From: Clostridiaceae bacterium
GTDB lineage: Bacteria; Bacillota; Clostridia; Lachnospirales; Lachnospiraceae
Direction of reading: 5' to 3'
NCBI GenBank assembly: GCA_910574345.1
Contig: CAJSZV010000002.1
Span: forward strand, 1 to 64,000
Length of the DNA: 64,000 nt
A model generated the notes under the pieces. It had not been told where the DNA came from. It was given only the letters and a program-made list of their open reading frames with translations, and searched no databases. Shown here piece by piece: positions 12,216-58,333 of this stretch (its first letter is position 1; each line of letters opens with the position of its first letter). The translations under genes and the position numbers were made by a program.

Positions 12216-14741
12216 TTATATACCAAATCCGAAGTCATCCGAAAAGGCAAGGTCCATAAGCATGGGGTGGCGGAAAACTTCTAAACCTGTGTTATCATCA
12301 TATGCAACAAGGAAATACTGCTTGTCCCTGTCATATCGTTTGTCCTTGAACTGGAACTTCATTCGGAACATACGCTTTAGCGCATCCGGATCCCGGCTGT
12401 CGGCAAATAAGCTAACCTCGTTGGAAATACGCTCATTGTCCTCCGACACGAAGAACATTTTATAGGTTGTTGCTTTGACCGTATCGCTGACAGGCTCCGA
12501 CTGGATAAATTCCAATATGGTGATTTTATTGGTAATCTTCTGGACCATGCTGACCAGGGCGATCTCAGCGTTCTTCGTTTCGATATGCCCCTTTTCCATT
12601 CGTATATCAATGACCGGTACAAGCATTTCCTGCGGAGAAGACCCGCCGTGGACATAGTTATGACCGCCTCCGGCAACTTTGAACACATTGCTGCTGACAG
12701 GGAAGGATACAACTTTTGAATCATTGTTCCGCAATACGGTTCCCATGCTCATATTCGCAATCCCATTATACACAACAGGCGCAGAGGATACAATGAATCG
12801 GCGGTTCACAAAAGCTCCCTTATCGCTTACACCGCCAATCTTGCCGCTTTCGGTCACTTTGTCATACTTGTAAATAAAGCCGTGATCAGCTGTGACGATG
12901 AAATGAATCGTGTTTGCGCCGACCGCAATACGATGAATCAAATCAATAATTTCCTGGATTGCTTCCTGACAGGCGGAAAACACCTCGTTTTCTGTATTCA
13001 GTTTATCGCCGCGGGCATCAATCTGATTATGGTAGATGTAAACTACCTGTTTCCCGGTAATAATCTTCCGCAGTTCCATTTTTTTTAGAGCTTTCATATC
13101 GTCAAATTGGACGCAGACGCTTCCCGGTACATAGGATTGTAAAACCTTTTCCCGCCCGGCCAGGCTGTCGCAAAGAACATCATCTACAAGCACCTGGTAG
13201 TCATCCGTCATGGTCAGAGACTTATGGGGGAGCAGCGCAGCCATGCCCAGCCGGGTGTAAGAGGGCAGGACACCAAGCTGAATCTCCAGCTTCGCGGAGA
13301 CACACTTAGGAGCATCCTGCATCCTCCGGAACAATTCCCGACCGACTTCAAAGCGGAGCGCGTCGGAGATGATGACAACAACACGGTCCTTTGCGTTTTT
13401 AATATGCCGAGAAAAGAAGTCAACTTGCGCCGGAATACTTGTAAGCGAATCCCCATCGACAAGTCCGGCGTTCCATTTGGGGAGCAATTCGGCCAGGAAC
13501 TCATTGGTATAGATGTTTTCTATCAATTCCCGGAGCGTTTCAAAATCAGCCGTGTCTGCAAGCTGGTCATAAGCAAAGTAGAACCGCCTGTATGCGGAAT
13601 CAATCTGACAATCCGTATTCCGGTACTTATCCACAATAGCCTTGAATCCATCCGGACAATGATAGGCGGCAGCAGTTATCAGATGATATGCGCTGTCAAG
13701 AAGACTGTAGGACTGTTCCGTCTGCGGGCCAAAGTGCATCTTTTGCCGCTTTTCACAGACCTGCGGAATCGTCAGAGTCCCCAGCTTTGCGCCAATATCC
13801 TCGTTCAGGAGCCGGTCAGTCATCCACTTGATGATAATCTGGTCAAAGCAGAGGAATGTATCGCACCCCACCAAATCCTCCGGCAAGTATCCGGCAAAGA
13901 TCGTTCCGGCATTCAAGCTTTTTACGACATGAGCGGACAGTGCATCGTAGGTTTCCCGATAGATCACGCTATTCATCAGGTTGTCGAGAAAGGCGATAAT
14001 GTTGCCGGACTTATAGGACTGAAACACCTTCCATGATTTTGGCAGCTCCGCCCCGATATACTTTGCAGTATAGGTTACGAACATAGTGACGGTCAGCTTC
14101 TCCAATGTGGGCTTGACATCGGTATAGCCAAAATGCTGTTCGCAGAGCTTCCAGAAAGCGTCCAACAAATTATACCGCTCAAACTCGGCCATGAAGCTGT
14201 TATCCGCCAGCCCTCCGCCAGTCAGCACCACCCGGACTACATCCTCAAAGGAACAGGTGCGGGCAGAGCATAAGGCAGCCATAATGCCCACAAGGATATT
14301 GGTCTCGTTATAATTCTCAATCTCCAGGTCATAGAACCGCTGGGCTCGTTTTTTCTCCGCCCAAAACTTGATGTGCTTCTCAATGAGCGGCCTATATTTT
14401 TCGTTAATACCCAGGTCTGCTAAGAGGAGTGCGGCTCGATCCGCAAAAAACCGTTTGGAGTAGAGCAGGGTATCCTCCAAATGATTGTCGGCCGTCTCCG
14501 GCTTCGGGAACGGCGCATAGATCAGGTAATTTGTCGCGGTATCTACACGCTCCAGAAAATACTTCGTATAGAACTGATTGTCCCGCTGGAGGTAGTAGAC
14601 TTTAGCGTTTTCCAGCATTACGTTCTGCATATCTTCTTCAAATTCAGCCTTATCATCATACCAAAAAACCAACTTGCGGGTATCCCCGGCAAATTCGGCG
14701 TTCAGCCGGTCAATGATTTGTTTCAAATTTAATTCAGCCAT
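12216..14741 (-). CDS. pglZ: BREX-1 PglZ alkaline-phosphatase-superfamily protein, locus 1
   Basis: Intact frame of about 841 residues. The N-terminal half is helical (LVFWYDDKAEFEEDM near the start). The phosphatase core shows VVVIISDALRFEVGREL and, later, FIVTADHGFIYKYD, the two metal-binding signatures of the PglZ domain. PglZ is required for BREX methylation and exclusion. The start at 14741 (MAELNLKQ) is preferred over 14762 because the preceding HTH remnant ends in TAA at 14746-14744. Neighbours are all broken (pglX, HTH, brxL), so this open gene is probably an orphan. It is clearly diverged from the locus 2 copy and lacks that copy's internal repeat. Confidence 0.88.
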   Translation of the reverse strand: MAELNLKQIIDRLNAEFAGDTRKLVFWYDDKAEFEEDMQNVMLENAKVYYLQRDNQFYTKYFLERVDTATNYLIYAPFPKPETADNHLEDTLLYSKRFFADRAALLLADLGINEKYRPLIEKHIKFWAEKKRAQRFYDLEIENYNETNILVGIMAALCSARTCSFEDVVRVVLTGGGLADNSFMAEFERYNLLDAFWKLCEQHFGYTDVKPTLEKLTVTMFVTYTAKYIGAELPKSWKVFQSYKSGNIIAFLDNLMNSVIYRETYDALSAHVVKSLNAGTIFAGYLPEDLVGCDTFLCFDQIIIKWMTDRLLNEDIGAKLGTLTIPQVCEKRQKMHFGPQTEQSYSLLDSAYHLITAAAYHCPDGFKAIVDKYRNTDCQIDSAYRRFYFAYDQLADTADFETLRELIENIYTNEFLAELLPKWNAGLVDGDSLTSIPAQVDFFSRHIKNAKDRVVVIISDALRFEVGRELFRRMQDAPKCVSAKLEIQLGVLPSYTRLGMAALLPHKSLTMTDDYQVLVDDVLCDSLAGREKVLQSYVPGSVCVQFDDMKALKKMELRKIITGKQVVYIYHNQIDARGDKLNTENEVFSACQEAIQEIIDLIHRIAVGANTIHFIVTADHGFIYKYDKVTESGKIGGVSDKGAFVNRRFIVSSAPVVYNGIANMSMGTVLRNNDSKVVSFPVSSNVFKVAGGGHNYVHGGSSPQEMLVPVIDIRMEKGHIETKNAEIALVSMVQKITNKITILEFIQSEPVSDTVKATTYKMFFVSEDNERISNEVSLFADSRDPDALKRMFRMKFQFKDKRYDRDKQYFLVAYDDNTGLEVFRHPMLMDLAFSDDFGFGI

Positions 14742-14743
14742 AT

Positions 14744-14880
14744 TTATCCATTCACCTGCCATTTCCCAGAGCGGTTATTCCCAATACGAGTAATGACACC
14801 TTGCTTTTGAAGTCTTGCCATAATGCGCTTCACTGTACTGAGCGAATATCCCGTTGTATTCTGAACTATTCCATTTAACC
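14744..14880 (-). pseudogene. Winged-HTH remnant between pglX and pglZ
   Basis: About 45 codons ending LSTVKRIMARLQKQGVITRI then GNNRSGKWQVNG, the C-terminal winged helix of the AlbA_2-type regulator found at the same place in locus 2 (30280-30723). The rest of the gene is gone. The shared gene order shows that the two loci descend from the same BREX layout. Confidence 0.6.
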
Positions 14881-14884
14881 CTGC

Positions 14885-15391
14885 CTACTTCTTCCCCATA
14901 ATATTTTTGGAATCCGCCAGCACCTCATAGAACTTACTGTCCGAGGCGGTCTGCATCTTGCGATAGTTGACCTTTACGCCATCGTCCAGATCCAGCTCAA
15001 TGCGGCTCAGGGCCAAATGGCTGACTTTTTCGTCATATTCCCGGCACTCCTTGAGCTGCTTTTGCAGCTTTTCTCTGCGCTTGACGGAAGCGGCGACCTC
15101 ACGGGGATTCTTGCTGTGTTCAATCATGTCCTGCATCCGGTCAATCTCGTTTTCATAGACCCGCTGCATCCGGTGGAGGTAGTCAATGCGCACGTTGCCG
15201 ATAGTGTCCGGCGTGTAGCGGTGCAGATAAATCAGCGCCTTGAAGCCGCTTTGTTTGCCGCTGTCGAACAGCCAGTAGATGGGGCGCTTCTGGAAAATTT
15301 TGCAGTGGTTGGCAAAGAAGTCCTTCAGGAAATAATTCCGAATGACCTCCCGGGAAGTCGCGCCTTTGTTTCCCAGAGCCTTGGCAATGAA
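14885..15391 (-). pseudogene. pglX: C-terminal fragment of BREX methyltransferase pglX, locus 1
   Basis: The frame from FIAKALGNKGATSREVIRNY through IFQKRPIYWLFDSGKQSGFK to the stop aligns with the last ~200 residues of the intact PglX at 25513-28995. It contains the conserved HCKIFQKRPIYWLFDSG and IELDLDDGVKVNY. Upstream of FIAKALG the minus-strand frame turns to nonsense because the adjoining pglX piece lies on the plus strand. The methyltransferase domain is absent. Confidence 0.85.
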
Positions 15392-15791
15392 CTGCCGGGG
15401 CTGAGGAACGCGAACTGCTGGGCCCATTCCAGTTATTGATTCTATTAGGTGGAGAGGAAAAGTTGAATCTATTGTAGAGAACAATGTTACAATTTCTAAA
15501 ACCGACTTGGACGCTTTCGAGACCTCCTGGGATTTCCATCGGCATCCGCTGGTGCGGGGCGCAGCCACGGTGGCGGAGGCGTTTGGATTATGGGAAGCGG
15601 AGTGCGAGGGTCAATTCCAACAGCTCAAGACCAACGAGGAGGAACTGAACCGGATCTTCATCAACATCTACGGCTTGCAGGACGAGCTGACGCCGGAGGC
15701 GAGTGGGACGCATCCAAGTACAGCACATTTCTCCCCGACGCCGATGGTATCCTCCCCATCACCGACGAGGAAAATCTGGATTTCTTTGCCA
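15382..15791. repeat. Short inverted repeats bounding an inverted pglX segment
   Basis: TGGCAATGAA (15382-15391) and TTCTTTGCCA (15782-15791) are inverted copies matching at nine of ten positions. Flipping the 390 bases between them restores the reading ENLDFIAKALGNKG across the left junction, as in intact PglX (ENLKFIAGALGGKG). Confidence 0.7.
15420..15781 (+). pseudogene. pglX: Inverted middle fragment of pglX, locus 1
   Basis: The plus strand encodes VESIVENNVTISKTDLDAFE then TSWDFHRHPLVRG and NEEELNRIFINIYGLQDELT. These match residues of the intact PglX from about 830 (NIAISKNDWDAFETSWDF). After LTPE the frame shifts and continues as GGEWDASKYSTFLPDADGIL, because about 45 codons are deleted at a GGAGGCGAG-like microhomology. 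It ends at ENLDF. The piece is opposite in orientation to the adjoining C-terminal fragment. Confidence 0.85.
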
Positions 15792-20326: not shown

Positions 20327-20545
20327 ATGGCAGTATGCTATAAAAAGCTGTGGAAAATGCTGATTGATAAAGATATGATAAAAAAAGACTTGCGCTTGCA
20401 GACTGGTTTCAGCACGACAACAATGTCGAAGTTGTCTAAAGATGAAAATGTCAGCATGGATGTATTAGAAAAAATCTGTTCCGTATTAAATTGCGATGTT
20501 GGAGACATCATGGAATTTGTTCCTGATAAAAAAGAGGAACCGTAA
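20327..20545 (+). CDS. Small Xre-type HTH regulator of the BREX operon
   Basis: A 72-residue Cro/C1-type helix-turn-helix protein: LWKMLIDKDMIKKDLRLQTG, TTTMSKLSKDENVSMDVLEK, then LNCDVGDIMEF. AAGAGGTGA precedes ATG 20327; the frame also opens at 20309 without a ribosome site. It is the first gene before brxA and lies 14 bases from it, so it is probably an autoregulator of the defence operon. Confidence 0.75.
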   Translation: MAVCYKKLWKMLIDKDMIKKDLRLQTGFSTTTMSKLSKDENVSMDVLEKICSVLNCDVGDIMEFVPDKKEEP

Positions 20546-20559
20546 GGAGGCAAAACATT

Positions 20560-21171
20560 ATGGATTATTCTTATCCGTATATAGCGTCTTTGACCAGAGA
20601 ACCGTTTCTTTTCTATGAAATGCGTTCCACCGCAAAGCTGATGAGCGAAAGACTCTCAGATGAAGCAATAGTAACAGAAATTGTGGAGCAGAATCTTTTC
20701 CAGTATCCAACTGAAAAATCGATTACACGGATGGCAAAAGCCTGTATGAAACGACTTCATGCTCTAGAAGATGAAACTCTGGTTTCTGCGATTGCATCGC
20801 AGCCGACAGAGATAGCAAAGCAGATCTGCCTGTATGCGATGATGAAGCAGAGCCGACTTGTTTGGGAGTTTATGCTGACAGTCATTGGAGAGAAGTACCG
20901 GTTAAGGGACATGTCCTTTGGAAAGATAGATTTGAATACATTTTTTATGCGTTTGCAGGAGCAGAATGATACCGTAGCTTCCTGGAGCGACAGCACAATC
21001 ACAAAGTTAAAACAGATTATTGCCAGAGTGCTTGTGGAGACGGAGTATCTCGACAATCGGGGGGCAGATCATTTGAATCCAGTATGGCTGCATCCTGTTT
21101 TGGAGAATGCCATCATAAGCAATGGCGATACAGTGGTACTGCCAGCGTTTAATTGCTTTTCATACACATAA
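20560..21171 (+). CDS. brxA: BREX protein BrxA (DUF1819)
   Basis: A 203-residue helical protein matching BrxA: FYEMRSTAKLMSERLSDEAI near the start, MAKACMKRLHAL, KQICLYAMMKQSRLVWEFML and a C-terminal VLVETEYLDN. In type 1 BREX, BrxA is a small DNA-binding protein that is needed for defence to varying degrees. AAGGAGG precedes the start. A strong hairpin separates it from brxB. Confidence 0.85.
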   Translation: MDYSYPYIASLTREPFLFYEMRSTAKLMSERLSDEAIVTEIVEQNLFQYPTEKSITRMAKACMKRLHALEDETLVSAIASQPTEIAKQICLYAMMKQSRLVWEFMLTVIGEKYRLRDMSFGKIDLNTFFMRLQEQNDTVASWSDSTITKLKQIIARVLVETEYLDNRGADHLNPVWLHPVLENAIISNGDTVVLPAFNCFSYT

Positions 21172-21178
21172 GTATACA

Positions 21179-21205
21179 ACGCAATGCTTCAGTGAAGCAT
21201 TGCGT
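21179..21205 (+). promoter_or_regulatory. Perfect hairpin between brxA and brxB
   Basis: ACGCAATGCTTCA and TGAAGCATTGCGT pair perfectly around a single central G. No T-run follows and the brxB ribosome site begins four bases later. It probably affects message processing or brxB translation rather than terminating. Confidence 0.6.
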
Positions 21206-21219
21206 GTAGGAGGCAGCTA

Positions 21220-21864
21220 ATGAGTGACAAGGTGAATTTCGGCGCAGCCGAAAGACAAGAGGAGCCCGCAGGGGCGGGAAGGTGCCCTAGGGCAGAGTTT
21301 GGCCTGGGCCGCATAAAAGAACGTCTGGACAAAGTTCGGGCATTGATTCAGGAGCCGGAGTTCCTGGAAGGCAAGGGACTCAGCAATGAGGTGAATATCA
21401 GAATCTTCTGTTACGAGCCGGAATATGAAATGGTGGTTCGGCATTTTGTAAATCAGATGGAAACCGATCAGTCCCTGGATTGCCGTTTGATGGTTTGTAA
21501 TTTATATAAAACTTTTCTCTCTATCTGCGATGATATGGACATCACAGATGCGATTTCAGACATGGAAGAAACTGACGGGAGTGCTTATCTTCTGGAACAG
21601 CTTAACACTGCAATCGGCAATGGAGAGTTCATTGATAAAATTCAGTATGAGCCGCATGAGCCGGGCGATGTACTGATGCTGACGGGTGTGGGCGAAGTTT
21701 TTCCATTTATGAGAATCCATACGTTACTGGAAGCCTTGCAGCCGTATTTTTCGGATGTTCCGATTCTTGTTATGTATCCGGGTGAGTTTGACGGCCGCCA
21801 TGTAAAACTGTTCAATCGTCTGACACCAAATGATTATTACCGGGCATTCAACGTGATAGAGTGA
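21220..21864 (+). CDS. brxB: BREX protein BrxB (DUF1788) with an N-terminal repeat insertion
   Basis: A 214-residue BrxB. The family core runs from about residue 31 (IKERLDKVRALIQEPEFLEG) through LMVCNLYKTFLSICDDMDIT, VLMLTGVGEVFPFMRIHTLL and YPGEFDGRHVKLFNRL. BrxB is an essential part of the BREX methylation and exclusion complex. The first 30 residues are not BrxB: they are translated from an 86-base multi-hairpin repeat (see 21223-21311) placed directly after the start codon, giving MSDKVNFGAAERQEEP and a second stretch AGAGRCPRAEFGLGR. The frame is kept, so the tag should be part of the protein unless translation starts further in. Confidence 0.88.
   Translation: MSDKVNFGAAERQEEPAGAGRCPRAEFGLGRIKERLDKVRALIQEPEFLEGKGLSNEVNIRIFCYEPEYEMVVRHFVNQMETDQSLDCRLMVCNLYKTFLSICDDMDITDAISDMEETDGSAYLLEQLNTAIGNGEFIDKIQYEPHEPGDVLMLTGVGEVFPFMRIHTLLEALQPYFSDVPILVMYPGEFDGRHVKLFNRLTPNDYYRAFNVIE
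21223..21311 (+). repeat. ORF-invading palindromic repeat, copy A (in brxB)
   Basis: An 86-base core (21226-21311) beginning GACAAGGTGAATT and ending GGCCTGGGCCG, matching copy B in pglZ (31526-31611) at about 71 of 86 positions. Four successive hairpins can form: TTTCGGC/GCCGAAA, CCCGC/GCGGG, TGCCC/GGGCA and GGCC/GGCC. In frame it encodes 29 residues. Confidence 0.85.
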
Positions 21865-21878
21865 GTGTTAGCGAGAAA

Positions 21879-21934
21879 AATATGCCTGCATATTTGGCGA
21901 GCGGTGAACGATGATTATGGACAATGTCCATAAT
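21879..21934 (+). promoter_or_regulatory. Two perfect hairpins between brxB and brxC
   Basis: AATATGC/GCATATT (21879-21894) and ATTATGGACA/TGTCCATAAT (21914-21934) are perfect inverted repeats, followed by the brxC ribosome site AAGGGGGA. No terminator T-run is present. Confidence 0.6.
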
Positions 21935-21954
21935 AGATTAAGGGGGATAAAGCC

Positions 21955-24900
21955 ATGAAGATTCAAGATATGTTTACGGACGACATCAACCGTAAAATCA
22001 ATGGTGTAATTAAAGTAGATCAGGCTGCTGACGATGTAATTGAACAGGAGTTAAATGAATACGTCATCACCAGAGAATTGAAAAAACATTTTATTACATT
22101 TTTCAATTATTACGGAGATGCCTTTGATCAGCCTACAGCCGATATGGGTGTGTGGATCTCCGGTTTCTTTGGAAGTGGTAAATCTCATTTTCTGAAAATG
22201 CTTTCTTATCTTCTGGAAAATAAAGAAGTAAAAGGTGTCCGCAGTGTAGAGTGTTTCCGTAAAAAATTTGAAGATGATCCGGCAACCTTTATGCTGATTG
22301 ATCGTGCCACCAAGGGACAGACAGAGACAATTCTGTTTAATATCGACATCGAAGGATTCAGCAATAAAGACAAAACTGCTGTGCTTCGTGTTTTCGCAAA
22401 AATGTTTTATAACCATCTGGGATTTTACGGTGAAAATCTGAAAGTCGCCATGATGGAGCGTTATATTGACCAACAGGGAAAGACGGAGGAGTTTTGCAGA
22501 GTTTTTGAGGAAAAAAAAGGAAAATCCTGGATGGAAATGCGTCGTGCTTTTGCGTTCAATGGCAAGTTCATTATCCCAACGCTGATGGAAGTTTTGGATA
22601 TGAGCGAAGACGATGCACGAGGCTGGTTCAATGATAAAACCGCAACAGAAATTTCTATCGCACAGCTTGTGGAAGATATGAAAGTCTATGTGGATACCAA
22701 ACCGGCCAACTTCCGTCTGCTGTTTATGATTGACGAGGTTGGTCAGTATGTTGGTACAGATACCGATATGCTTTTGAATCTCCAGTCTTTGACAGAAAAG
22801 ATTGGCAGTGAGTGCGAAGGTAAGATTTGGGTCATCTGCACCGGACAGGAAGCGATCGATGAAATCATTAAAGTTCGAGCCGATGAGTTCTCCCGTATTC
22901 AGGCTCGTTTCAAAACAAGACTGAGCTTATCTTCTTCCTCTGTGGATGAAGTCATCCAGAAGCGTATTTTGAAAAAGAAACCAGAAGCATCTGCTGATTT
23001 GGAAAATGTTTATGAGCAGAATGATTCCGTTTTGCGTAACCTGTTCAGCTTCAATGGTTCCATTCTGGATATTAAAGGGTATTCTGGTTCGAGGGAGTTC
23101 ACTGAGAACTTCCCGTTCGTGCCATATCAGTTTATCATTATGCAGAAAGTATTTGCAGAAATCCGTAAGCACGGAAATTCCGGCAAGCATCTTTCCGGCG
23201 GTGAGCGTTCCATGCTTTCCGGCTTCCAGGAGGCGGCACAGAAAATTCAGGAGAAGGACGAATATGCACTTGTTCCGTTCTTTCGTTTTTATGATACCGT
23301 ACATACTTTCCTGGACGGTTCTATTCGCCGAGTCATTGAGCGCTGCCAGAAAGCCGCAGACAATGGTGATGGTATCAAACAGCAGGATGTAGATGTGCTG
23401 AAACTTTTGTATCTGATTCGGTATATTGATGATATTCCTTCTAATCTGGATAATATCGTTATTCTGATGGCAGATGATATTCGTGTGGATAAAATTATTA
23501 TGCGTGAAGCTGTCCGTGGCTGCCTTGACCGTCTGATTAGCCAGAACTATATTGGCAGAACAGGCGATACTTATAACTTCCTGACAGATGAAGAACAGGA
23601 TATTCAGCGTGAAATCCGGGATACCAACGTGGATACCGCTTCTATCGTGGAGCGTATTGCCCAGATGATTTATGGTGATATTTTTACAACCAAGAAATTC
23701 CGTTATGGAAAATATGACTTTGCGTTCGACCAGATGGTAGATGGCATTACGGTCGGCGTGGCTATGGGCGGTATGCGTTTGCGTTTTCTGACCGTTGCAA
23801 CCGATGCAACAGAAAAAACAGAGTTCCGTCTGATGACAGAATCAAAAGGTAACGAAGCTATTGTTGTTCTGACTGATACGCCATATTATGAATCGCTGGA
23901 ATCTGCCATGAAGATTCGTAAATATGTAAAGCAGAGAAACGTAAGCCAGCTTCCAAAGAGTGTGCAGAAAATTATCAGCGACCATCAGGATGAAGCCGGA
24001 AAATACGAGCTGAGTGCCATGACAGAATTGCAAAATGCCATCGAAGGGGCACAGTTCTATGTAGATGGGGAACATCTGGAAATGAAAGGTGGAAATGCCA
24101 AGAGTAAAATTGACCAGTCATTGGAATATCTGGTTGCTCATGTATATAGCAAGCTGGATCTGATTACAGAAAATGCGGGCAGTGACGCAGATATTATTGC
24201 TATTCTGACTGGTACTGTTACCATGCTCCCAGGCATGGAGCCGAACCGTGATGCTGCTTCTGCAATGGAAGAATATCTGGAAATGCAGGATGCGAAAAAG
24301 CTGCCCACATCTATGGCAGATGTGCAGAGCAAATACAGTGCAATTCCCTATGGCTGGAAGGAAATCGACATTGCCGCGGTTGCGGCACAGCTGATTTATT
24401 CCCAGAAAGTAACCATCAAATATGCAGGCAATACCATTCAGCCGGATGACCCGAAACTGCCGGATATGCTCCGTAAAAAGAGTGAAATCGGCAAGACTTC
24501 CATCAGCAAACGTAAAACCATTTCCGCTGCCATGATGCGGGATGTAAAAGAAATGCTCCGTGAGTATTTCGATATTATGGATGTGCCGGATGATGAAGAT
24601 GGTTTGATTCGCTTTGTAACCGAAAAATTCAGCGAACAGCGGGATTACTATGTTTCTTTGAATGACCGTTACGAAGGACATAAATACCCGGATCGTGGAC
24701 TGGTGCAGACAGCTATCAGTCTTATGGATGATGTTCTTTCTCAGAAGAAAGACAATATCGCACTGATTGAGCGTGTACTGAAAAAAGAGGATGACTTGTT
24801 TGAAAACAAAGAATCCATGAGCAACGGTATTGAGAATTTCTTCAAAACCCAGGTAACGGTATTTGACCAGTCAGTGCAGTTTGAAAAATCTCTGCATGCT

Positions 24901-25503
24901 GATCTTGACCGTATTGCGGAAAATGAAGAAGCTCATAAGGCGCTGAATACCATTCGTCTGATTACGATGGTTCAGCCAGGCAGTAAGTTCAACTATAACC
25001 GGATTCGGGAATTGAATCCACTGATGGATACCGTTCGTACTGCCCATGATAAGATGCTGGAAGAAAAACGAACCGAGGTTCTGGAAACAGTTCGTCAGTG
25101 TATGGAGGCAACCCATACTGCCGCAAATGGAGATTCCAAGGCATCTCATCTGATTGAAAAATCAGACAAGTATTTCAGCCAGTGCAAGGAGAAAATTGCA
25201 GAATTAAAGAGCCTTGCCCTTCTGGATGCCATGTTCCTGCCAATGTGCCAGTATAAGGATGATACGGTCAGCCATATTGAAACAGTTCTCGCACCGCCGG
25301 CTCCGAAGCCGCAGATTCAGCGGACTCAGACTGGAAAAGAACCGGTTCCGGCAAAGAAAAAGGTAGTCCGTGCTTATAATCGTCAGGTTGTATTCCAGGC
25401 AAAGACCTTGCAGAGTGAAGCGGACATTGATGATTATGTGGAGAAGATCCGTTCTCAGCTGAAGCAGTTGCTGAAAAATTGCGACGAGATTAAGCTGAAT
25501 TAG
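21955..25503 (+). CDS. brxC: BREX P-loop ATPase BrxC
   Basis: Large ATPase of 1182 residues, the usual BrxC size. A Walker A loop is visible at about residues 70-77 (GFFGSGKS, then HFLKML), and a Walker-B-like LLFMIDEVGQYVG lies near 255-267. The long remainder is helical with a basic C-terminus (AKKKVVRAYNRQVVFQAKTL). BrxC is the central ATPase of BREX and is needed for both methylation and phage exclusion. It ends ten bases before pglX. No frameshift or insertion is seen. Confidence 0.93.
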   Translation: MKIQDMFTDDINRKINGVIKVDQAADDVIEQELNEYVITRELKKHFITFFNYYGDAFDQPTADMGVWISGFFGSGKSHFLKMLSYLLENKEVKGVRSVECFRKKFEDDPATFMLIDRATKGQTETILFNIDIEGFSNKDKTAVLRVFAKMFYNHLGFYGENLKVAMMERYIDQQGKTEEFCRVFEEKKGKSWMEMRRAFAFNGKFIIPTLMEVLDMSEDDARGWFNDKTATEISIAQLVEDMKVYVDTKPANFRLLFMIDEVGQYVGTDTDMLLNLQSLTEKIGSECEGKIWVICTGQEAIDEIIKVRADEFSRIQARFKTRLSLSSSSVDEVIQKRILKKKPEASADLENVYEQNDSVLRNLFSFNGSILDIKGYSGSREFTENFPFVPYQFIIMQKVFAEIRKHGNSGKHLSGGERSMLSGFQEAAQKIQEKDEYALVPFFRFYDTVHTFLDGSIRRVIERCQKAADNGDGIKQQDVDVLKLLYLIRYIDDIPSNLDNIVILMADDIRVDKIIMREAVRGCLDRLISQNYIGRTGDTYNFLTDEEQDIQREIRDTNVDTASIVERIAQMIYGDIFTTKKFRYGKYDFAFDQMVDGITVGVAMGGMRLRFLTVATDATEKTEFRLMTESKGNEAIVVLTDTPYYESLESAMKIRKYVKQRNVSQLPKSVQKIISDHQDEAGKYELSAMTELQNAIEGAQFYVDGEHLEMKGGNAKSKIDQSLEYLVAHVYSKLDLITENAGSDADIIAILTGTVTMLPGMEPNRDAASAMEEYLEMQDAKKLPTSMADVQSKYSAIPYGWKEIDIAAVAAQLIYSQKVTIKYAGNTIQPDDPKLPDMLRKKSEIGKTSISKRKTISAAMMRDVKEMLREYFDIMDVPDDEDGLIRFVTEKFSEQRDYYVSLNDRYEGHKYPDRGLVQTAISLMDDVLSQKKDNIALIERVLKKEDDLFENKESMSNGIENFFKTQVTVFDQSVQFEKSLHADLDRIAENEEAHKALNTIRLITMVQPGSKFNYNRIRELNPLMDTVRTAHDKMLEEKRTEVLETVRQCMEATHTAANGDSKASHLIEKSDKYFSQCKEKIAELKSLALLDAMFLPMCQYKDDTVSHIETVLAPPAPKPQIQRTQTGKEPVPAKKKVVRAYNRQVVFQAKTLQSEADIDDYVEKIRSQLKQLLKNCDEIKLN

Positions 25504-25512
25504 GAGACGAGT

Positions 25513-28500
25513 ATGGATAAGAACGCGATTAAAAGGTTTGCTGTCTGGGCAAGAACAGAGCTGATCGCCCGTGTTTCACTGAAAGGTGTGGAATATGGTA
25601 TTACCGAGGATAATATTGTTGATGCTGCAGCTGACAGCGTGGGCGGTAAAGTTCTGACGGATGCAGAGAAAAAACAGCGGATGGCTTGTATTGCCGAGAT
25701 TAACGATAAAGGATACAAGCAGGTTATGGAGGAGGTTGCCTACACATGGTTTAACTGCTTTTCTGCCCTGCGTTTCATGGAGGTCAACGGTTATCTTCCT
25801 TCCCATGTGCGTGTGTTTACGGACGAGGAGAACAACTTCAAGCCGCAGATCATCACCGAAGCCATTCATCTGGATTTGGATGGACTCAATATGGAAAAGG
25901 TCTATGAGCTGAAAGAAGCTGAAAAGACCGAAGAACTGTATAAATATCTGCTGATTGTGCAGTGTAATGCCTTAAATAAGATTCTGCCGGGACTGTTCCA
26001 GAAAATCAGCGACTACACCGAGCTTCTTCTGCCGGACAACTTGCTCCGTGAAGGCAGTGTGATTCAGCAGATGATCGAGCGGATACCAGAGGATGACTGG
26101 AAAGATGCGGTGCAGATTATCGGATGGCTGTATCAGTATTATAATAGCGAAAAAAAGGATGATGTATTCGCTGCTCTGAAAAAGAATGTCAAAATCACAA
26201 AAGAAAACATACCTGCGGCAACCCAGCTTTTCACACCGGACTGGATTGTTCGTTACATGGTAGAGAACAGCCTTGGTCGTTTGTGGCTGGAAGGACACCC
26301 AGATGCTAAGAATCAGCTTCTGCCAACGGAAGAAGAACAGTCTGCCTATGTTGCCAGAAATCGTGACCCAGAAGATACCAAATGGCATTATTATCTGGAA
26401 GAAGCCGAGCAGGAACCGGAAGTGCAGGCACAGCTTGCCGAGATTCGCAGGGAATACGCAGCACTGACACCGGATCAGCTGAAAGTCATTGACCCTTGCT
26501 CCGGTTCTGGTCATATCCTTGCGTATATGTTCGATGTGCTGATGAAGATTTATGAATCCTACGGCTATACCACCCGTGAAGCGGTGGCGAGTATTGTGGA
26601 GAATAACATCTATGGTCTGGATATTGACGACCGTGCGGCACAGCTGGCTTACTTTGCGGTCATGATGAAAGCGCGTCAGTATGACCGCCGGTTCTTCAGC
26701 CGTGGTATTCAGCCCCATGTGTATGCTATTGTGGAGAGCAATCATGTGGACAAATTTGCTGTGGAGTATTTCTGTAATGGGGATGCAAAGCTGAAAGCGA
26801 CAATGGATACGATTATCAGCAAATTACATGATGCAAAGGAGTATGGCTCGATTCTAACGGTAATTCCACAGGACTGGTCTGCTCTGTATGACCGCTTTGC
26901 AGAGATTACAGAGGATATTCATATGTCCCGTGATGTGGTATTGGCAGAACTTTTGCCGTTGGTGCAGGTGGCAGAAGCATTGGCACAAAAGTATGATGTG
27001 GTGGTGACGAATCCGCCATATATGGGTAGCTCTGGTATGAGTACAAAGCTCTCTGATTATGTTAAAAAATATTATTCCGATAGTAAAAGTGATTTGTTTG
27101 CAGTATTTGTTGAACATTGTGGTCAGATGGCAAAGAAAAACCGTTATCAAGCAATGATTACGCAACACGCATGGATGTTCTTGTCCAGCTTTGAAAAACT
27201 GCGTATTAAATTGCTTAATGCAGATATTGTCAATTTGGCACATCTTGGGGCAAGAGCTTTTGAAGAAATTGGTGGCGAAGTGGTACAAACTACATCATTT
27301 GTTATGCGAAAAAGCTACATTTCAGATTATAATGGAAAATATTGCCGCTTGATTGAACCGACGACACAGCAGGGTAAGGAAGATATGTTCCTTGCGAAAG
27401 AAAATCGTTATGTAGCTAACCAGTCAAATTTTTCAAAAATTCCTGGTAGTCCTGTGGCATATTGGGTTAGCAAACCAGTCTATCAAGCATTTGATAATGA
27501 AAAAATCGGAAAGTATGCGATTTCTGATGGACAAACGAAGACAGGCAATAATGATAAATACCTTCGTATGCTGTGGGAAGTTCCTGTTTCGGAAATTGGA
27601 AAAGGAAAGCATTGGATCCTTCATGCGAAGGGAGGCTCTTTTAGACGTTGGTATGGAAATATTGACACGCTAATTGATTGGTCTGATTCTGCCAGAGAAC
27701 ATTATCGTAAAGATCGTGTAGCGAGAATTGCGCCTGAGTATATTTGGTTTAGGAATGGAATATGTTGGACTTTAATTTCGAGTAATAAATTGCATGGATT
27801 TAGATTGTTGCAAGATAATTCGACATTTAATTTGGCTGCCCCCTCTGTTTTTTTTAATGATGATAGGATGATGTTCTATATATTGGGATATCTTAACTCA
27901 AAATTTAGCCAAGAAATCATTGCACTGCTAAATCCAACACTCAATACAAATATCAGTGATATAACATCTCAGCCACTGTGTTATGGGAAACTGCCAGAAC
28001 AAGATAATTGCGTTATAGACTTAGTTAAAAACAATATAGCTATTTCAAAAAATGACTGGGACGCCTTTGAAACTTCATGGGATTTCCAACACCATCCACT
28101 GCTTCGCAAAGTTCCGACCATTGCCGAGGCATTTGACCAATGGCAAGCTGAATGTGATGACCGTTTCTATCAGCTGAAAGCCAACGAGGAAGAACTGAAT
28201 CGTATCTTCATTGACATTTACGGCTTGCAGGAAGAACTGACACCGGAGGTTGAGAATAAGGATGTGACTGTCCGCAAGGCGGATCTAGGGCGAGATATTC
28301 GTTCTTTCATTTCCTACGCTGTAGGTTGTATGTTCGGTCGATACTCTCTGGATGTGGATGGTCTTGCCTATGCAGGCGGCGAATGGGAGGCAAGCAAGTA
28401 TGCTTCTTTTGCTGCTGACAAAGATAACATTATCCCGATTTGCGACGATGAATATTTTGAGGATGATATTGTGGGTCTGTTCGTAGAATTTGTGAAAACA

Positions 28501-28995
28501 GTTTATGGTGCAGAGACATTGGATGAAAATCTGAAATTCATCGCCGGTGCACTGGGCGGTAAAGGTCAGCCGAAAGATGTGATTCGGTATTACTTCATGA
28601 GTGATTTTTATTCTGACCATTGCAAAATTTATCAGAAACGCCCGATTTACTGGCTGTTTGACAGCGGTAAAAAGAACGGTTTTAAAGCTCTGGTTTACAT
28701 GCACCGCTATCAGCCAGACACCATTGCCCGTATCCGTACCGATTATGTGCATGAACAGCAGGCTCGTTATCGTACAGCTATTGCCGATCTGGAACAGCGT
28801 ATAGCTAATGCTTCCACCGGCGAACGTGTGAAGCTGAACAAAAAACTGACCGCTTTGCAGGCTCAAGATACCGAGATCCGTACCTATGAGGAAAAGATTC
28901 ACCACCTTGCCGACCAGATGATATCCATCGACCTGGATGACGGTGTGAAGAAGAACTATGCAATTTTCCAGGACGTTTTGGCTAAAATAAAGTAA
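25513..28995 (+). CDS. pglX: BREX adenine-specific DNA methyltransferase PglX
   Basis: Full-length PglX of 1160 residues. The N-terminal helical part is followed by TPDWIVRYMVENSLGRLWLE, the SAM-binding motif VIDPCSGSGHILAYM near residue 325, and the catalytic NPPY motif near residue 500 (VVVTNPPYMGSSGM), the signature of N6-adenine methylation. A specificity and C-terminal region carries DAFETSWDFQHHPLL, QKRPIYWLFDSGKKNGFKAL and IDLDDGVKKNY. It methylates the BREX recognition site on host DNA. GAGACGAG precedes the start. This intact copy is the reference against which the broken locus 1 fragments were recognised. Confidence 0.95.
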   Translation: MDKNAIKRFAVWARTELIARVSLKGVEYGITEDNIVDAAADSVGGKVLTDAEKKQRMACIAEINDKGYKQVMEEVAYTWFNCFSALRFMEVNGYLPSHVRVFTDEENNFKPQIITEAIHLDLDGLNMEKVYELKEAEKTEELYKYLLIVQCNALNKILPGLFQKISDYTELLLPDNLLREGSVIQQMIERIPEDDWKDAVQIIGWLYQYYNSEKKDDVFAALKKNVKITKENIPAATQLFTPDWIVRYMVENSLGRLWLEGHPDAKNQLLPTEEEQSAYVARNRDPEDTKWHYYLEEAEQEPEVQAQLAEIRREYAALTPDQLKVIDPCSGSGHILAYMFDVLMKIYESYGYTTREAVASIVENNIYGLDIDDRAAQLAYFAVMMKARQYDRRFFSRGIQPHVYAIVESNHVDKFAVEYFCNGDAKLKATMDTIISKLHDAKEYGSILTVIPQDWSALYDRFAEITEDIHMSRDVVLAELLPLVQVAEALAQKYDVVVTNPPYMGSSGMSTKLSDYVKKYYSDSKSDLFAVFVEHCGQMAKKNRYQAMITQHAWMFLSSFEKLRIKLLNADIVNLAHLGARAFEEIGGEVVQTTSFVMRKSYISDYNGKYCRLIEPTTQQGKEDMFLAKENRYVANQSNFSKIPGSPVAYWVSKPVYQAFDNEKIGKYAISDGQTKTGNNDKYLRMLWEVPVSEIGKGKHWILHAKGGSFRRWYGNIDTLIDWSDSAREHYRKDRVARIAPEYIWFRNGICWTLISSNKLHGFRLLQDNSTFNLAAPSVFFNDDRMMFYILGYLNSKFSQEIIALLNPTLNTNISDITSQPLCYGKLPEQDNCVIDLVKNNIAISKNDWDAFETSWDFQHHPLLRKVPTIAEAFDQWQAECDDRFYQLKANEEELNRIFIDIYGLQEELTPEVENKDVTVRKADLGRDIRSFISYAVGCMFGRYSLDVDGLAYAGGEWEASKYASFAADKDNIIPICDDEYFEDDIVGLFVEFVKTVYGAETLDENLKFIAGALGGKGQPKDVIRYYFMSDFYSDHCKIYQKRPIYWLFDSGKKNGFKALVYMHRYQPDTIARIRTDYVHEQQARYRTAIADLEQRIANASTGERVKLNKKLTALQAQDTEIRTYEEKIHHLADQMISIDLDDGVKKNYAIFQDVLAKIK

Positions 28996-29005
28996 AGGGG
29001 AAAGT

Positions 29006-29467
29006 ATGAGTGATGAGATCAATATGACGATTTCTATTCCCACAGATAATGACGGCTATGTTCTTTTACAATGTGAGCATTGTGGCACATATTTTAAGGG
29101 GACATCTTCTGATTTAAAGGATGACGGCGTATTTAATATATTTTGTCCAAGTTGCGGCTTGATAAGCGAAAACTACGTTACCGATGATGTACTTGAACTT
29201 GCTATGAAAATGGTGACGAATGCTGACAATGATATGATTTATGATGGATTCAAAAAATTAGAACGTCATAATAAAAAAGGAGTCATTTTATTCAAGGCTG
29301 GAAAACGCCCAAAGCATGAAAGTGAAGATCCTATTCGGCCAAGTATAGAAGCAATGGAAATTTGTAATTTTCCCTGCTGTAAGCGTACTGCCAAAATTAA
29401 GCCATTATTAAAAATGACGGGTGCGTATTGCCCGTTTTGTGGGGTGAAAAATTATGAAATTGAATAA
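29006..29467 (+). CDS. Double zinc-ribbon protein in the BREX operon
   Basis: A 153-residue protein with two treble-clef or ribbon-like cysteine sets: CEHCGTYFKG with FCPSCGLISE, and a C-terminal set CNFPCCKRT with YCPFCGVKN. Between them is a charged helical stretch. It is not one of the six core type 1 BREX proteins. It lies ten bases after pglX, has AAAGGGGAAAG upstream, and overlaps the next gene by 14 bases, so the pair is co-translated. It could be a nucleic-acid-binding accessory factor; that is inference. Confidence 0.7.
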   Translation: MSDEINMTISIPTDNDGYVLLQCEHCGTYFKGTSSDLKDDGVFNIFCPSCGLISENYVTDDVLELAMKMVTNADNDMIYDGFKKLERHNKKGVILFKAGKRPKHESEDPIRPSIEAMEICNFPCCKRTAKIKPLLKMTGAYCPFCGVKNYEIE

Positions 29468-30242
29468 AAAAGAACTGAGAAAAATCCAATATGATTTTAA
29501 CAGCTGTTCTAATCGACTGCTTCAGGCAGATTATGAAGATTATGCAGGTGTGCTTGCAAAATTTGTGAAATATATGGATAGCACACCAATTATAAATGAT
29601 TATATCTGTGGTTGTGGTAGTTGTGATTGGAATTTAGAAGAAGAAATCAAGGAAGTGCAAGGCTCATACGGGCGTTTGATTTTTTTGTTGGGCGAAACAG
29701 ATGAGGAAGAAGTACGAAACGTGTATGCCGTTTTACGATTTTTAGTAGAAACAAACAATTCTGTATATCGTGGCGTTGCCATGGGATATTCTTCTTCGTC
29801 TAAATGGCAAGATAAAATCAAAGGATTTAATGAACGGTTTGTTATGGTGTTGATTCGCCATGTAGAAAGGTATTTAACGAAAATAGGTATTGATATGGGA
29901 ATAGATGAAAAGAATGTTTATAATGTGACTGTACAAAATGGTCAAGCTATTATTGCAAATGATAATTCGACCGTTACGGCAACTACGCATATTGGTGTAA
30001 ATGCAAATGAACTGGAACGGTTGATTGCTTCGGTACGAACAAAAATGGATACACTTACAGATACAGATAAAGAAACTGCATCTGAGAGCTTGGAAGTTAT
30101 AGAAGCAGAAATTGTATCTGAAAAGCCCAAAAAATCCATGATAAAAACAGCAATAACTTCATTGCAGGCAATAAAGGGAGCTGCAGAATTTGGAGCTGCT
30201 GTTTCAGCATTGATTCAATTTATTGGACCTATGCTATCGTGA
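29454..30242 (+). CDS. Unknown protein coupled to the zinc-ribbon gene
   Basis: A 262-residue protein of no recognised family. The N-terminal ~145 residues are helical, with a small cysteine cluster YICGCGSCDWNLEEE. A middle beta-like stretch reads NVTVQNGQAIIANDNSTVTA, a serine/threonine/asparagine-rich strand pattern also seen in some defence effectors. A charged linker and an apolar C-terminal helix (ITSLQAIKGAAEFGAAVSAL and IQFIGPMLS) that could insert in a membrane follow. Its overlap with the zinc-ribbon gene and its place inside the BREX operon suggest a joint role with it. Confidence 0.6.
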   Translation: MKLNKKELRKIQYDFNSCSNRLLQADYEDYAGVLAKFVKYMDSTPIINDYICGCGSCDWNLEEEIKEVQGSYGRLIFLLGETDEEEVRNVYAVLRFLVETNNSVYRGVAMGYSSSSKWQDKIKGFNERFVMVLIRHVERYLTKIGIDMGIDEKNVYNVTVQNGQAIIANDNSTVTATTHIGVNANELERLIASVRTKMDTLTDTDKETASESLEVIEAEIVSEKPKKSMIKTAITSLQAIKGAAEFGAAVSALIQFIGPMLS

Positions 30243-30279
30243 CAGTACATAAAGCTGTAAAAGAGAGCGGGGTGCTATC

Positions 30280-30723
30280 ATGACCATAGAAGAAATTCTT
30301 GCAGGGGAATCGAAGAATGTAGAGTTCAAAGAAACCCTGCCGGAAAAAAGTATTAAATATATGAAATCTGTAGCTGCCTTTGCCATTTTGACTGGTAATC
30401 GAGGTCAGAATAACGACAATAATATCAAAAATGGCGTTAATGCAGATGCTGACAGCATTGATGGCGTTGAAAATGGCGCTAGTGACATTAAAAATGACGT
30501 TGATGAAGTGGTATATACAGACAAAGTTTTTCCAGATCATATTCAAAAACTGCTGAAGATCATTGCCGAAAATCCGGCAGAAACGCAGGCACAGTATGCA
30601 GAGAAGCTTGGAATATCAAAAAGAACAATTTCCAGAATTTTTGCGGAGTTAAAAGAACAAGGCATACTCGAACAGCAAGGAAACAGAAGAAAAGCAAAAT
30701 GGCTTATTATAAAGAAAAGATAG
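30280..30723 (+). CDS. AlbA_2-type regulator with internal deletion, HTH retained
   Basis: A 147-residue chimera. The first 35 residues (MTIEEILAGESKNVEFKETL...KSVAAFA) are the beginning of an AlbA_2/Schlafen-like DNA-binding domain that normally continues FANxxGG. The sequence then jumps to a low-complexity linker with GVN/GVE echoes (NGVNADADSIDGVENGASD) and a C-terminal winged helix (ETQAQYAEKLGISKRTISRI then FAELKEQGILEQQ). Full-length relatives are about 450 residues, so roughly 300 are missing, yet the frame is kept. It may still be made as a small regulator. The locus 1 remnant at 14744-14880 is the same gene. Confidence 0.6.
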   Translation: MTIEEILAGESKNVEFKETLPEKSIKYMKSVAAFAILTGNRGQNNDNNIKNGVNADADSIDGVENGASDIKNDVDEVVYTDKVFPDHIQKLLKIIAENPAETQAQYAEKLGISKRTISRIFAELKEQGILEQQGNRRKAKWLIIKKR

Positions 30724-30733
30724 GAGGTGCAGC

Positions 30734-33460: not shown

Positions 33461-33481
33461 GTACCGTAGGAGGATGGAAAG

Positions 33482-33665
33482 ATGGAGCAATTTACAGAGG
33501 GTGATAGCACCCGTGAAGAAATAAGGAACAAGCACCGCCAGAACTTTGACGGTAAAAATGCGTCGCCGTGTCAAGGAACAGCTGAAAAAGCTGGGCGGCA
33601 TGGAGTTTTATGATGTGAATTTCTCTTATATTAACCTGGATGGTTACCTTGACCGGGGATTATAA
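33482..33665 (+). pseudogene. brxL: brxL remnant, locus 2
   Basis: GTAGGAGG precedes an ATG with about 24 codons resembling a BrxL N-terminus (EEIRNKHRQNFDGK). These are joined out of frame to a piece from the middle of BrxL (MRRRVKEQLKKLGGMEFYDV then NFSYI), which ends at 33665. The ATPase, Walker motifs and Lon protease domain are all absent. Its position directly after pglZ is the canonical brxL place. Confidence 0.65.
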
Positions 33666-33835
33666 GATACTGTATGAACGGTTTATGGAGAGAAACGGAA
33701 AGCCGGAAAGGCATAGGGGGCATGTGGTCAATGACTGTGATCCGGAAAAGGAAGATACCAGGCCGGCCGTTATCGCATAGGAAAATTTTGCCGATGGGAT
33801 AAGAAGGTATCTTTCTTTGGAGATCTAATTTTCCA

Positions 33836-33864
33836 TTGCCTAAATATACAGTCAATGGTACAAT
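33836..33864 (+). promoter_or_regulatory. Promoter of the TRIC-type channel gene
   Basis: TTGCCT (33836-33841), 17 bases, TACAAT (33859-33864), 43 bases before ATG 33907. The preceding 170 bases hold only a short frame (KILYERFMERNGKPERH...) that I do not recognise, probably island-edge debris. Confidence 0.5.
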
Positions 33865-33906
33865 AGCCATGAAAAATGAAGCGCTGATTCAAAAGAGGTT
33901 AAGATC

Positions 33907-34551
33907 ATGATTTTTATACTTGAGATCATAGGTACCATTGCATTTGCATTTTCAGGCTGTATGGTGGCTAATTCAAAAAGGATGGACGTATTTGGCGTAT
34001 GGGTGCTGGGGACGGTGACAGCTGTGGGGGGCGGTGCCCTGCGGGATGTGCTTCTGGGACAGTTTCCCCCGAATATGTTCCGGAATGGGGTATATGTGGC
34101 CATAGCCACAGCTACGGTAGTATTCTGGCTGTGGATGGCAGCCAGAAAGGGGGCTTTGCCGAGACGTCACTTTCATCAGCTGGCCTGGCTGATGGATATC
34201 TTTGACTCCATTGGTTTAGGCGTGTTTGCAGTGGTAGGGTCTCGGACGGCTATTGACTGCGGGTATGGTGATAATTGGTTTTTGGTTATTTTTGTAGGGG
34301 TGCTGACCGGAGTAGGCGGCGGTCTTATGAGAGATGTGATGGCCAATATGATGCCGGTGATTTTCAGAAAGAGAGTTTATGCCAGTGCGGCTCTGGCAGG
34401 AAGCGGCATCTATGTAATTCTTCTTTCCTGGAGTTCGGAAGTTTGGGCGGTATCGGCAGGGGTTGTGACCGTCTTTTTCATCCGGACCATGGCAAGTCTG
34501 CGCCGCTGGGATCTGCCGGTCTATGTACTGGAGCCGGAAGATCAGGAGTAG
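33907..34551 (+). CDS. TRIC-type cation channel family protein (UPF0126, YadS-like)
   Basis: A 214-residue membrane protein with about seven helices in two similar halves. Each half carries the glycine-rich motif GGGALRDVLLG or GGGLMRDVMAN of the prokaryotic TRIC/UPF0126 family. Prokaryotic TRIC proteins are homotrimeric monovalent cation channels. It has its own promoter and a terminator, so it is a single-gene unit marking the return to chromosomal backbone after the BREX island. AAGAGG lies just before the start. Confidence 0.9.
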   Translation: MIFILEIIGTIAFAFSGCMVANSKRMDVFGVWVLGTVTAVGGGALRDVLLGQFPPNMFRNGVYVAIATATVVFWLWMAARKGALPRRHFHQLAWLMDIFDSIGLGVFAVVGSRTAIDCGYGDNWFLVIFVGVLTGVGGGLMRDVMANMMPVIFRKRVYASAALAGSGIYVILLSWSSEVWAVSAGVVTVFFIRTMASLRRWDLPVYVLEPEDQE

Positions 34552-57729: not shown

Positions 57730-58169
57730 GTTGACGGGGCGGGGAAAAACGGATAAAAACAGGCGTCAAGCTTGCTTGTAAGCCTGCTTTTATCCGTTTT
57801 TCCACATCGGGTGAATAACCCGATGCTTCTTGTCCGTCCCCGACGGGCAAGAAGATGCCCCTTCCCAATAGACACGTTAGTTGACGGGGCGGGGAAAAAC
57901 AGATAAAAACAGGCGTCAAGCTTGCTTGTAAGACTGATTTTATCTGTTTATCCACATCGGGTGAATAACCCGGTGCTTCTTGTCCGTCCCCGACGGGCAA
58001 GAAGATGCCCCTTCCCAATAGACACGTTACCGTTGACGGGGCGGGGAAAAACAGATAAAAACAGGCGTCAAGCTTGCTTGTAAGACTGATTTTATCTGTT
58101 TATCCACATCGGGTGAATAACCCGATGCTTCTTGTCCGTCCCCGACGGGCAAGAAGATGCCCCTTCCCA
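57730..58169. repeat. Three tandem ~150-base structured repeats
   Basis: Units start at 57730, 57880 and 58032 with GTTGACGGGGCGGGGAAAAA. Each folds into an outer stem (GGATAAAA...TTTTATCC in unit 1, AGATAAAA...TTTTATCT in units 2 and 3), a CATCGGGT/ACCCGATG hairpin, and CTTCTTG-CCGTC/GACGG-CAAGAAG with a CCC loop. Unit 3 lacks the ATAGACACGTTA tail. No gene is convincing in the 57566-58333 interval. Confidence 0.9.
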
Positions 58170-58333
58170 CAAACAGTAACAATAAGGCAGGAAGACCACC
58201 GGCCAGCTTGCTTTCAAAGGGGCGGGATGGTATCATAATACCGGAAACCAAAGGCGGCCGCAGTCAGCTTTGCATAAAGAACCGCAGTGCCGGGACTCGC
58301 AAACCCATAAGTATGAGCAGAAGGAGAGAGAAC

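Follow-up and report, generated by a model that had tools for sequence, protein, structure and literature searches.

Short palindromic DNA segments inserted in frame into protein-coding genes are best known from Rickettsia and Wolbachia. No enzyme is known to mobilise elements of this kind. The Rickettsia palindromic elements (RPE) are described as 105-146 bp long, with long stem-loops and terminal inverted repeats, and as occurring in Rickettsia and Wolbachia (PMC2229807, PMC3767692); a guanylate kinase carrying an RPE is reported there to be translated and active (PMC2229807). REP sequences are short hairpin repeats, some of which lie within genes and some within other palindromes (PMC3733652), and the mitochondrial double-hairpin elements and yeast GC clusters have paired hairpins, occur in both genes and spacers, and are found in tandem (PMC2800124, PMC4478555). 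Bacterial MITEs with open frames, such as Correia (107 bp), ERIC and YPAL, are non-autonomous and give rise to in-frame fusions with host genes (PMC2229807); a further source on the known kinds is PMC12306157.

Here we describe a unit of ~45 nt with two short hairpins, present in enlarged form in two genes of a BREX operon within the 64,000-nt stretch of DNA that was analysed (hereafter, the window). A preliminary description of this DNA had likened the segment to the RPE of Rickettsia. In behaviour the likeness holds, as both are structured and tolerated and occur between genes and, in frame, within conserved protein genes; in size, fold and host range it does not, as the unit is only ~45 nt long, has two short separate hairpins and crosses phyla, which sets it apart from RPE as these are described. 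The ends of the unit are not inverted repeats of each other, and its two hairpins are accompanied by unpaired linkers. With REP sequences it shares the character of a short hairpin repeat found in genes and in other palindromes, but it differs in having two hairpins in fixed order and long conserved linkers, and column counts over 71 sequences revealed no GTAG or CGTC tag at an end. The fungal double-hairpin elements are, by description, similar in shape, although those are mitochondrial. Correia, ERIC and YPAL elements are larger (about 100-200 bp) and, unlike the unit, mostly have terminal inverted repeats and target duplications. No description of the unit was found in the full-text literature searched, in which coverage of subscription papers is thin.

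Two BREX genes and their empty counterparts

Comparison of the window with itself yields an 89-nt direct repeat, 21223-21311 against 31523-31611, with 82% identity (~73 of 89 positions). This bears out the earlier statement that a second copy of the brxB segment lies in pglZ, and it accounts for the ~71 of 86 matches given at the time for a shorter core. Both host genes were assigned by Pfam and lie on the plus strand (brxB, 21220-21864, BrxB at E 2.6e-35; pglZ, 30734-33460, PglZ at E 2.6e-51), and both copies are in frame, with brxB carrying its copy at the start and pglZ internally. Within the window, a conserved stretch of 34 bases is confined to the two repeat places, with 0 expected from 100 window shuffles. 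E-values of 1.7e-40 and 5e-19 were obtained for the two copies by BLAST of their whole genome, in which a weak match led to a third, L047 (~7775-7821), which has the 45-nt form with hairpin 1 and the last hairpin only. Its host is a short pglZ fragment standing alone on another contig (contig 11) of the same genome, G000.

A genome of the same family (G072) contains a closely related BREX operon (locus L040), with ~84-87% nucleotide identity to that of the window, in which both sites are empty. In its brxB, ATGAGTGA-TATAAAAG is contiguous where the window has 84 additional nucleotides, and in its pglZ the same is true of CATAGTGA-GGACATTC. Judged from these alignments, both window segments are insertions of 84 nt on the plus strand, with limits at 21228-21311 and 31528-31611. 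The segment had been placed directly after the brxB start codon; the repeat does run from the second codon (Met-Ser-Asp...), but the insert proper begins only after Met-Ser-Asp. On translation, the brxB insert gives the peptide KVNFGAAERQEEPAGAGRCPRAEFGLGR (codons 4-31, including the neighbouring base), which would add a probably disordered N-terminal tail to BrxB. In a structure model of BrxB (mean pLDDT 65.5), residues 1-27 fall below 50, which fits disorder, although the alignment behind the model is shallow (9 sequences). The pglZ insert is in the same reading frame and, as translated, would add 28 residues to PglZ, for which the structure model (mean pLDDT 36) cannot be used.

The same sites are filled differently in other genomes. 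The brxB site holds a 45-nt form in L058 and L106, and the pglZ site holds one in L102. A 45-nt insert is also present in pglX of L087 and L114, at a place where the window's own pglX is empty, and a REP loop provides a further empty/filled pair inside one genome (G249). No target-site duplication was seen at any of the pairs compared, which cover the brxB, pglZ and pglX sites and the G249 REP loop. The base 3' of the insert in L058, L064 and L084 is T, as in the empty site, which places the left boundary at CAAGG, give or take one base. A boundary at AAGG was rejected: the brxB, pglZ and REP empty sites would then each require a substitution, whereas CAAGG requires none, and the pglX site requires one under either choice.

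Relatives of pglZ were found in 29 of 245 genomes searched, the window's own included. The stretches around these comprise 37 loci, some fragmentary, and a match to the covariance model described below was confined to the window's own pglZ, the stretches from the 28 other genomes giving none. Together with the empty sites, this shows that BREX genes do not normally contain the segment. Two outcomes named beforehand as telling against a mobile element were its presence in all related brxB and pglZ genes and a lack of further copies anywhere; instead, a close BREX operon is empty at both sites and copies occur in many genomes.

A second insertion relative to L040 lies between brxA and brxB (window 21165-21210). 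Within it, immediately before the ribosome-binding site of brxB, lies a 12-bp perfect palindrome, CGCAATGCTTCA-G-TGAAGCATTGCG (21180-21204). A diverged version of this palindrome, with a stem that seems partly conserved, is present in L106 and L058.

The basic unit and its enlarged forms

The basic unit of ~45 nt reads CAAGGTGAAT–hairpin 1–AAGAGARGG–hairpin 2, and hairpin 2 is the end of the element. Hairpin 1 of the common form has 7 bp and a 3-nt loop. Measured by the spans of model matches, 73 of 92 listed copies are 45 nt long (range 37-51). The 86-base core had been taken for the unit itself; it proves to be an enlarged version, in which 39 extra nucleotides with two more hairpins bring the length to 84 nt.

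In the brxB copy, hairpin 1 (7-bp stem, 3-nt loop) lies at 21237-21253, the internal segment with its two further hairpins at 21256-21294, and the right end with terminal hairpin 2 (GGCC-TG-GGCC) at 21295-21311. The corresponding parts of the pglZ copy are at 31537-31553, 31556-31594 and 31595-31611, all on the plus strand as in brxB. The hairpins were read from the sequence, with family covariation behind hairpin 1 in both copies and the covariance model behind the right end in pglZ, and the internal segments are what the 45-nt forms at the same sites lack (L106 and L058 for brxB, L102 for pglZ). The model itself matches the brxB copy at 21227-21278 and the pglZ copy at 31527-31567 and 31594-31612, likewise on the plus strand. 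Enlarged forms overall measure about 66-99 nt, with segments after hairpin 1 of ~21 nt in L222, ~24 nt in L100 and ~54 nt in L093 beside the 39 nt of the window, and tandem arrays occur in records named Methylotenera, Cellvibrionaceae and Thiohalobacter and in An138.

A pattern scan with the conserved left part against 84,980 species genomes returned 63 loci. A script blind to pairing recognised a right end in 36 of them (29 short, 7 enlarged by an internal segment), and another four (L053, L068, L078, L109) score 44-76 bits with the covariance model, which gives 40 loci counted as real. The other 23 reach at most 26.8 bits or have no score and look like chance matches. Three loci (L186, 2577-2605; L187, 1567-1592; L191, 1506-1532) are shorter relatives without hairpin 1, in which CAAGGTCAAGARRG is followed by the terminal hairpin.

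A proposed mobile element and its carriers

We consider it likely that the unit is a non-autonomous double-hairpin DNA element that is moved in trans and tolerated in genes. At the compared sites the surrounding sequence aligns and the unit is either wholly there or wholly missing, and it is found in and between genes, on either strand relative to its neighbours, in tandem, and with extra internal hairpins. Insertion is precise, duplicates no bases and shows no preference of orientation, and what is conserved is the linkers and the pairing; on these grounds, a trans-acting enzyme working on folded DNA would be the most likely agent. We postulate that such an enzyme recognises the conserved linkers and hairpins, the DNA probably being extruded or single-stranded. 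Survival within genes may be owed to the absence of stops from five of the six frames of the consensus, as read by eye, to a length that is usually a multiple of three, and to a small, Gly-rich peptide. REP sequences, a transposase-like gene, other repeats and BREX operons would serve as vehicles for further spread, part of which can be seen directly, and in this window the unit would have invaded brxB and pglZ. It is tempting to speculate further that the unit represents an undescribed class of mobile DNA, only ~45 nt long with two hairpins, that leaves no target duplication and has spread across several bacterial phyla. Such DNA would depend on a putative enzyme acting on it in single-stranded or folded form, and would time and again supply functional genes, those for ribosomal, cell-division and antiphage proteins among them, with ready-made peptide segments in frame; we offer this wider proposal tentatively and would not, at present, lean towards it.

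Perhaps the unit is instead a passive passenger, descended from one or a few old insertions that were spread by REP/RAYT, insertion sequences and BREX operons and having no mobility today. Such carriers do exist. In G249, the loop of the REP hairpins may be empty (GCTTGCCC-TGCAAGC) or contain the unit. Most G988 copies lie in another repeat or in a transposase-like gene, and those of G1023 in a longer repeat; in both genomes nearly identical copies share the same flanks. The brxB and pglZ copies of related genomes occupy common sites. Independent events are therefore fewer than the copy counts in G249, G988 and G1023, and the high copy number in these genomes is largely secondary. We nevertheless regard a purely passive origin as unlikely, as copies occur in unrelated genes (ribosomal protein L4, FtsQ, Mur ligase, CcmE, D12 methyltransferase, pglX, ABC transporters), as the unit alone is extra at the aligned brxB, pglZ and pglX sites (brxB also having the separate upstream palindrome), and as tandem and enlarged copies exist.

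No longer parent element emerged from a search for the left-end pattern (one spacing, one mismatch) in 19 genomes. By reading, this search contained one clear left half without a right end, which is truncated and has no gene attached, and a left/right scan of the loci from L047 on found only short internal segments. The lone left half is L318 (~1486-1513, minus strand, contig 209 of G249) and consists of CAAGGTGAAT and hairpin 1. An internally deleted transposon, that is, a MITE of a larger element, was rejected on account of the lack of longer relatives around a gene in these scans and of a target-site duplication at the compared sites.

Covariation of the two stems

Both stems covary. Among 71 distinct sequences chosen by linker sequence only (CAAGGTGAA and GAGAR), some of them from structure-model loci, 95.2% of cells in the 13 hairpin pairs are paired, compared with a mean of 74.7% and a maximum of 77.6% after shuffling, which leaves relatedness among the sequences in place. 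Double-sided changes number 205 cells against a shuffled maximum of 92, G-U pairs make up 8.6% of cells, and pairing falls to 45-50% when partners are slid by one or two columns. The 35 sequences from pattern scans alone behave similarly (96.5% paired; 85 double changes against a shuffled maximum of 41), and the seven pairs taken as free of the search patterns are 95.1% paired in this set. An alignment of 26 sequences (A1) was picked with a stem filter that biases its pair counts, a filter from which the 71-sequence count is free. Part of the compensatory pattern could be yielded by palindrome-correcting mutation.

The compensated differences noted earlier in hairpin 1 are correct for the two window copies and hold across the family. 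The four consecutive hairpins proposed for the window form fared less evenly: they fit the sequence as read, but minimum-energy folds do not contain all four. Folding energies of the window copies are ordinary (z -0.78 and -0.18), and the two-hairpin fold is best in four of six copies folded, the other two preferring another fold. Four of the five positions can pair between consensus columns 2-6 (CAAGG, fixed by selection of the sequences) and 38-42 (CCTGG, in 54 of 71), and an alternative fold of this CAAGG/CCTGG type is predicted for some copies (L193, L065).

Strong covariation that includes G-U pairs, in hairpins that would lie in the mRNA, is also what a structured RNA would show, whether it served programmed ribosomal bypassing, translation control or mRNA processing. 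We think such a function improbable. There is no orientation preference between genes, where 15 copies run along both neighbours and 13 opposite to both; insertion at the RNA level on the sense strand was also rejected as a rule on this ground. Inserts within genes are open and have lengths in multiples of three (43 of 44, against 38 of 48 between genes, in copies hand-listed from the 130 described below with enlarged and some tandem ones omitted), which makes a bypass unnecessary, and in brxB the codon before the insert (GAC) does not match the last insert codon (CGC), whereas programmed bypassing would call for matching take-off and landing codons. Single-copy folding energies are, as noted, ordinary, and Rfam 15 gave no match above the gathering score for window 20500-34000 and seven further loci.

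Reading frame and host genes

Under a longest-ORF rule, 57 of 130 distinct copies fall in sense ORFs in one frame (KVN...REG.LG) and another 57 between ORFs, while two have a different sense frame and 14 are in antisense ORFs. Each orthologous or tandem copy is an entry of its own here, so the copies are not independent. At least two of the 14 antisense calls among 73 ORF calls are wrong, the copies of L060 and L110 actually being sense, in an ABC transporter and in brxB, respectively. Coding copies in another frame are known from two places, a tandem tail on PdxA (L224) and the transposase-like gene of G988, a gene type assigned by reading of the sequence.

A Pfam family was found for 18 of 20 host proteins scanned. 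They comprise PglZ domain, ribosomal protein L4, FtsQ, Mur ligase, CcmE, PdxA, TonB receptor, ABC transporters, D12 methyltransferase, AAA-ATPase-like, GntR, M29 peptidase-like and beta-helix proteins, and a 3D-domain protein on a viral contig; the list was taken almost wholly from ORFs in the KVN frame and is uninformative on frame. By eye, the insert lies inside the best-scoring Pfam stretch in only two of the 18, L4 and the D12 methyltransferase. In the other 16 it is found in tails, in linkers or at domain borders, as would be expected if a translated insert is tolerated.

The constancy of the frame raises the question of whether the peptide is what is selected, with KVN...REG.LG acting to the host protein's benefit as a linker or tag, for instance in BREX assembly. 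The 57 of 59 sense copies in a single frame would suit this idea, as would the 19 of 40 real loci in BrxB, PglZ-domain or PglX proteins, although that share may stem from a search pattern derived from BREX copies. Copies between genes conserve the same nucleotides equally well, however, which argues that DNA, not peptide, is what is conserved. Furthermore, the pglZ stretches of the 28 relatives do without the unit, the PdxA tail and the transposase-like gene have the unit in another frame, and the best loci of 10 other relatives below 1e-6 have no BREX match by tblastn. Selection on the peptide is, if anything, slightly harder to credit than an RNA function. The preference for coding insertion suggested earlier did not hold either, as all but two of the copies examined in G249, the genome with the highest copy number, are between ORFs. 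The broader idea of an inserted element with open frames and changes that keep its structure is supported by the empty sites, the covariation and the frames.

Among the explanations considered, we give least credence to mobilisation of the unit, as a REP element, by a RAYT (Y1 tyrosine) transposase: conserved bases do precede the hairpins and Y1 genes were found in eight of 11 genomes searched, but the GTAG/CGTC end tag is absent, no Y1 match was obtained in G258 (25 copies), G246 or the window's genome, one of 15 Y1 loci has a copy of the unit nearby, and in G249 the hairpin repeat flanking the Y1 locus that was read is a different one, with GTAG. The RAYT link is weak, and no associated transposase was found for the non-autonomous element that we favour.

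Distribution among genomes

The unit is rare. A BLAST search with a window copy at E 0.001 gave no match in the other 194 of 195 relatives, and a covariance model (R1) was needed to detect further copies. With this model, 22 of 245 relatives, the window's genome included, have matches at E 0.01, the weakest of which may be chance, as pattern matches without a right end reach 26.8 bits; besides the window's genome, 10 of the 245 fall below 1e-6. At 1e-6, matches were obtained in three of 398 genomes sampled across the phylum, one of them the window's own, and, for the class to which G249 belongs, in 25 of 369, including G249 and G250. The highest counts at E 0.01, in which weak matches may likewise be chance, are 35 in G249 (Cellvibrionaceae) and 25 in G258 (Lachnoclostridium An138), and at 1e-4 there are 17 in G988 and 14 in G1023. 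Eleven viral contigs matched a loose pattern; six hold copies of at least 33.8 bits, five have no model match, and one has copies in two ORFs, including that of the 3D-domain protein. E. coli genomes gave no match, plasmid collections only three partial matches and phage collections only one.

The records containing real loci are named Lachnospiraceae and other Eubacteriales, Synergistaceae, Patescibacteria, Methylotenera, Thiohalobacter, Cellvibrionaceae and Myxococcales, the non-Bacillota records being metagenome bins, in which single cases could be mis-binned. If records named Bacillota, Pseudomonadota, Synergistota, Patescibacteria and Myxococcota do have such a compact unit in common, this would point to insertion into coding sequence as a more widespread origin of new protein segments. 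Its defined sequence and structure also provide a handle for an enzyme search. For annotation, N-terminal tags or inserts like that of BrxB can be inserted DNA and not conserved protein.

BREX genes as hosts

By tblastn, the 19 of 40 real loci that lie in BREX-type proteins comprise nine in BrxB, six in PglZ-domain proteins and four in PglX, which looks like enrichment in BREX, though the scan pattern was built from BREX copies and may inflate the share. Two BrxB lineages that are ~35% identical both have the unit at the N terminus, and in pglZ there are at least two insertion sites (L053 and the window).

A distant second PglZ, 33% identical to the window's BREX PglZ, is encoded at 12216-14762 on the minus strand, ~17 kb upstream of the BREX pglZ. 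Parts of pglX are repeated nearby in direct and inverted orientation (15201-15699 against 28030-28724). The interval between pglX and pglZ (29006-30723) differs from that of the related operon L040 and contains three genes; one encodes a winged-helix domain, and the other two gave no Pfam family. Further along the window, at 57730-58181, three copies of a ~150-nt sequence stand in tandem, 90-96% identical to the first.
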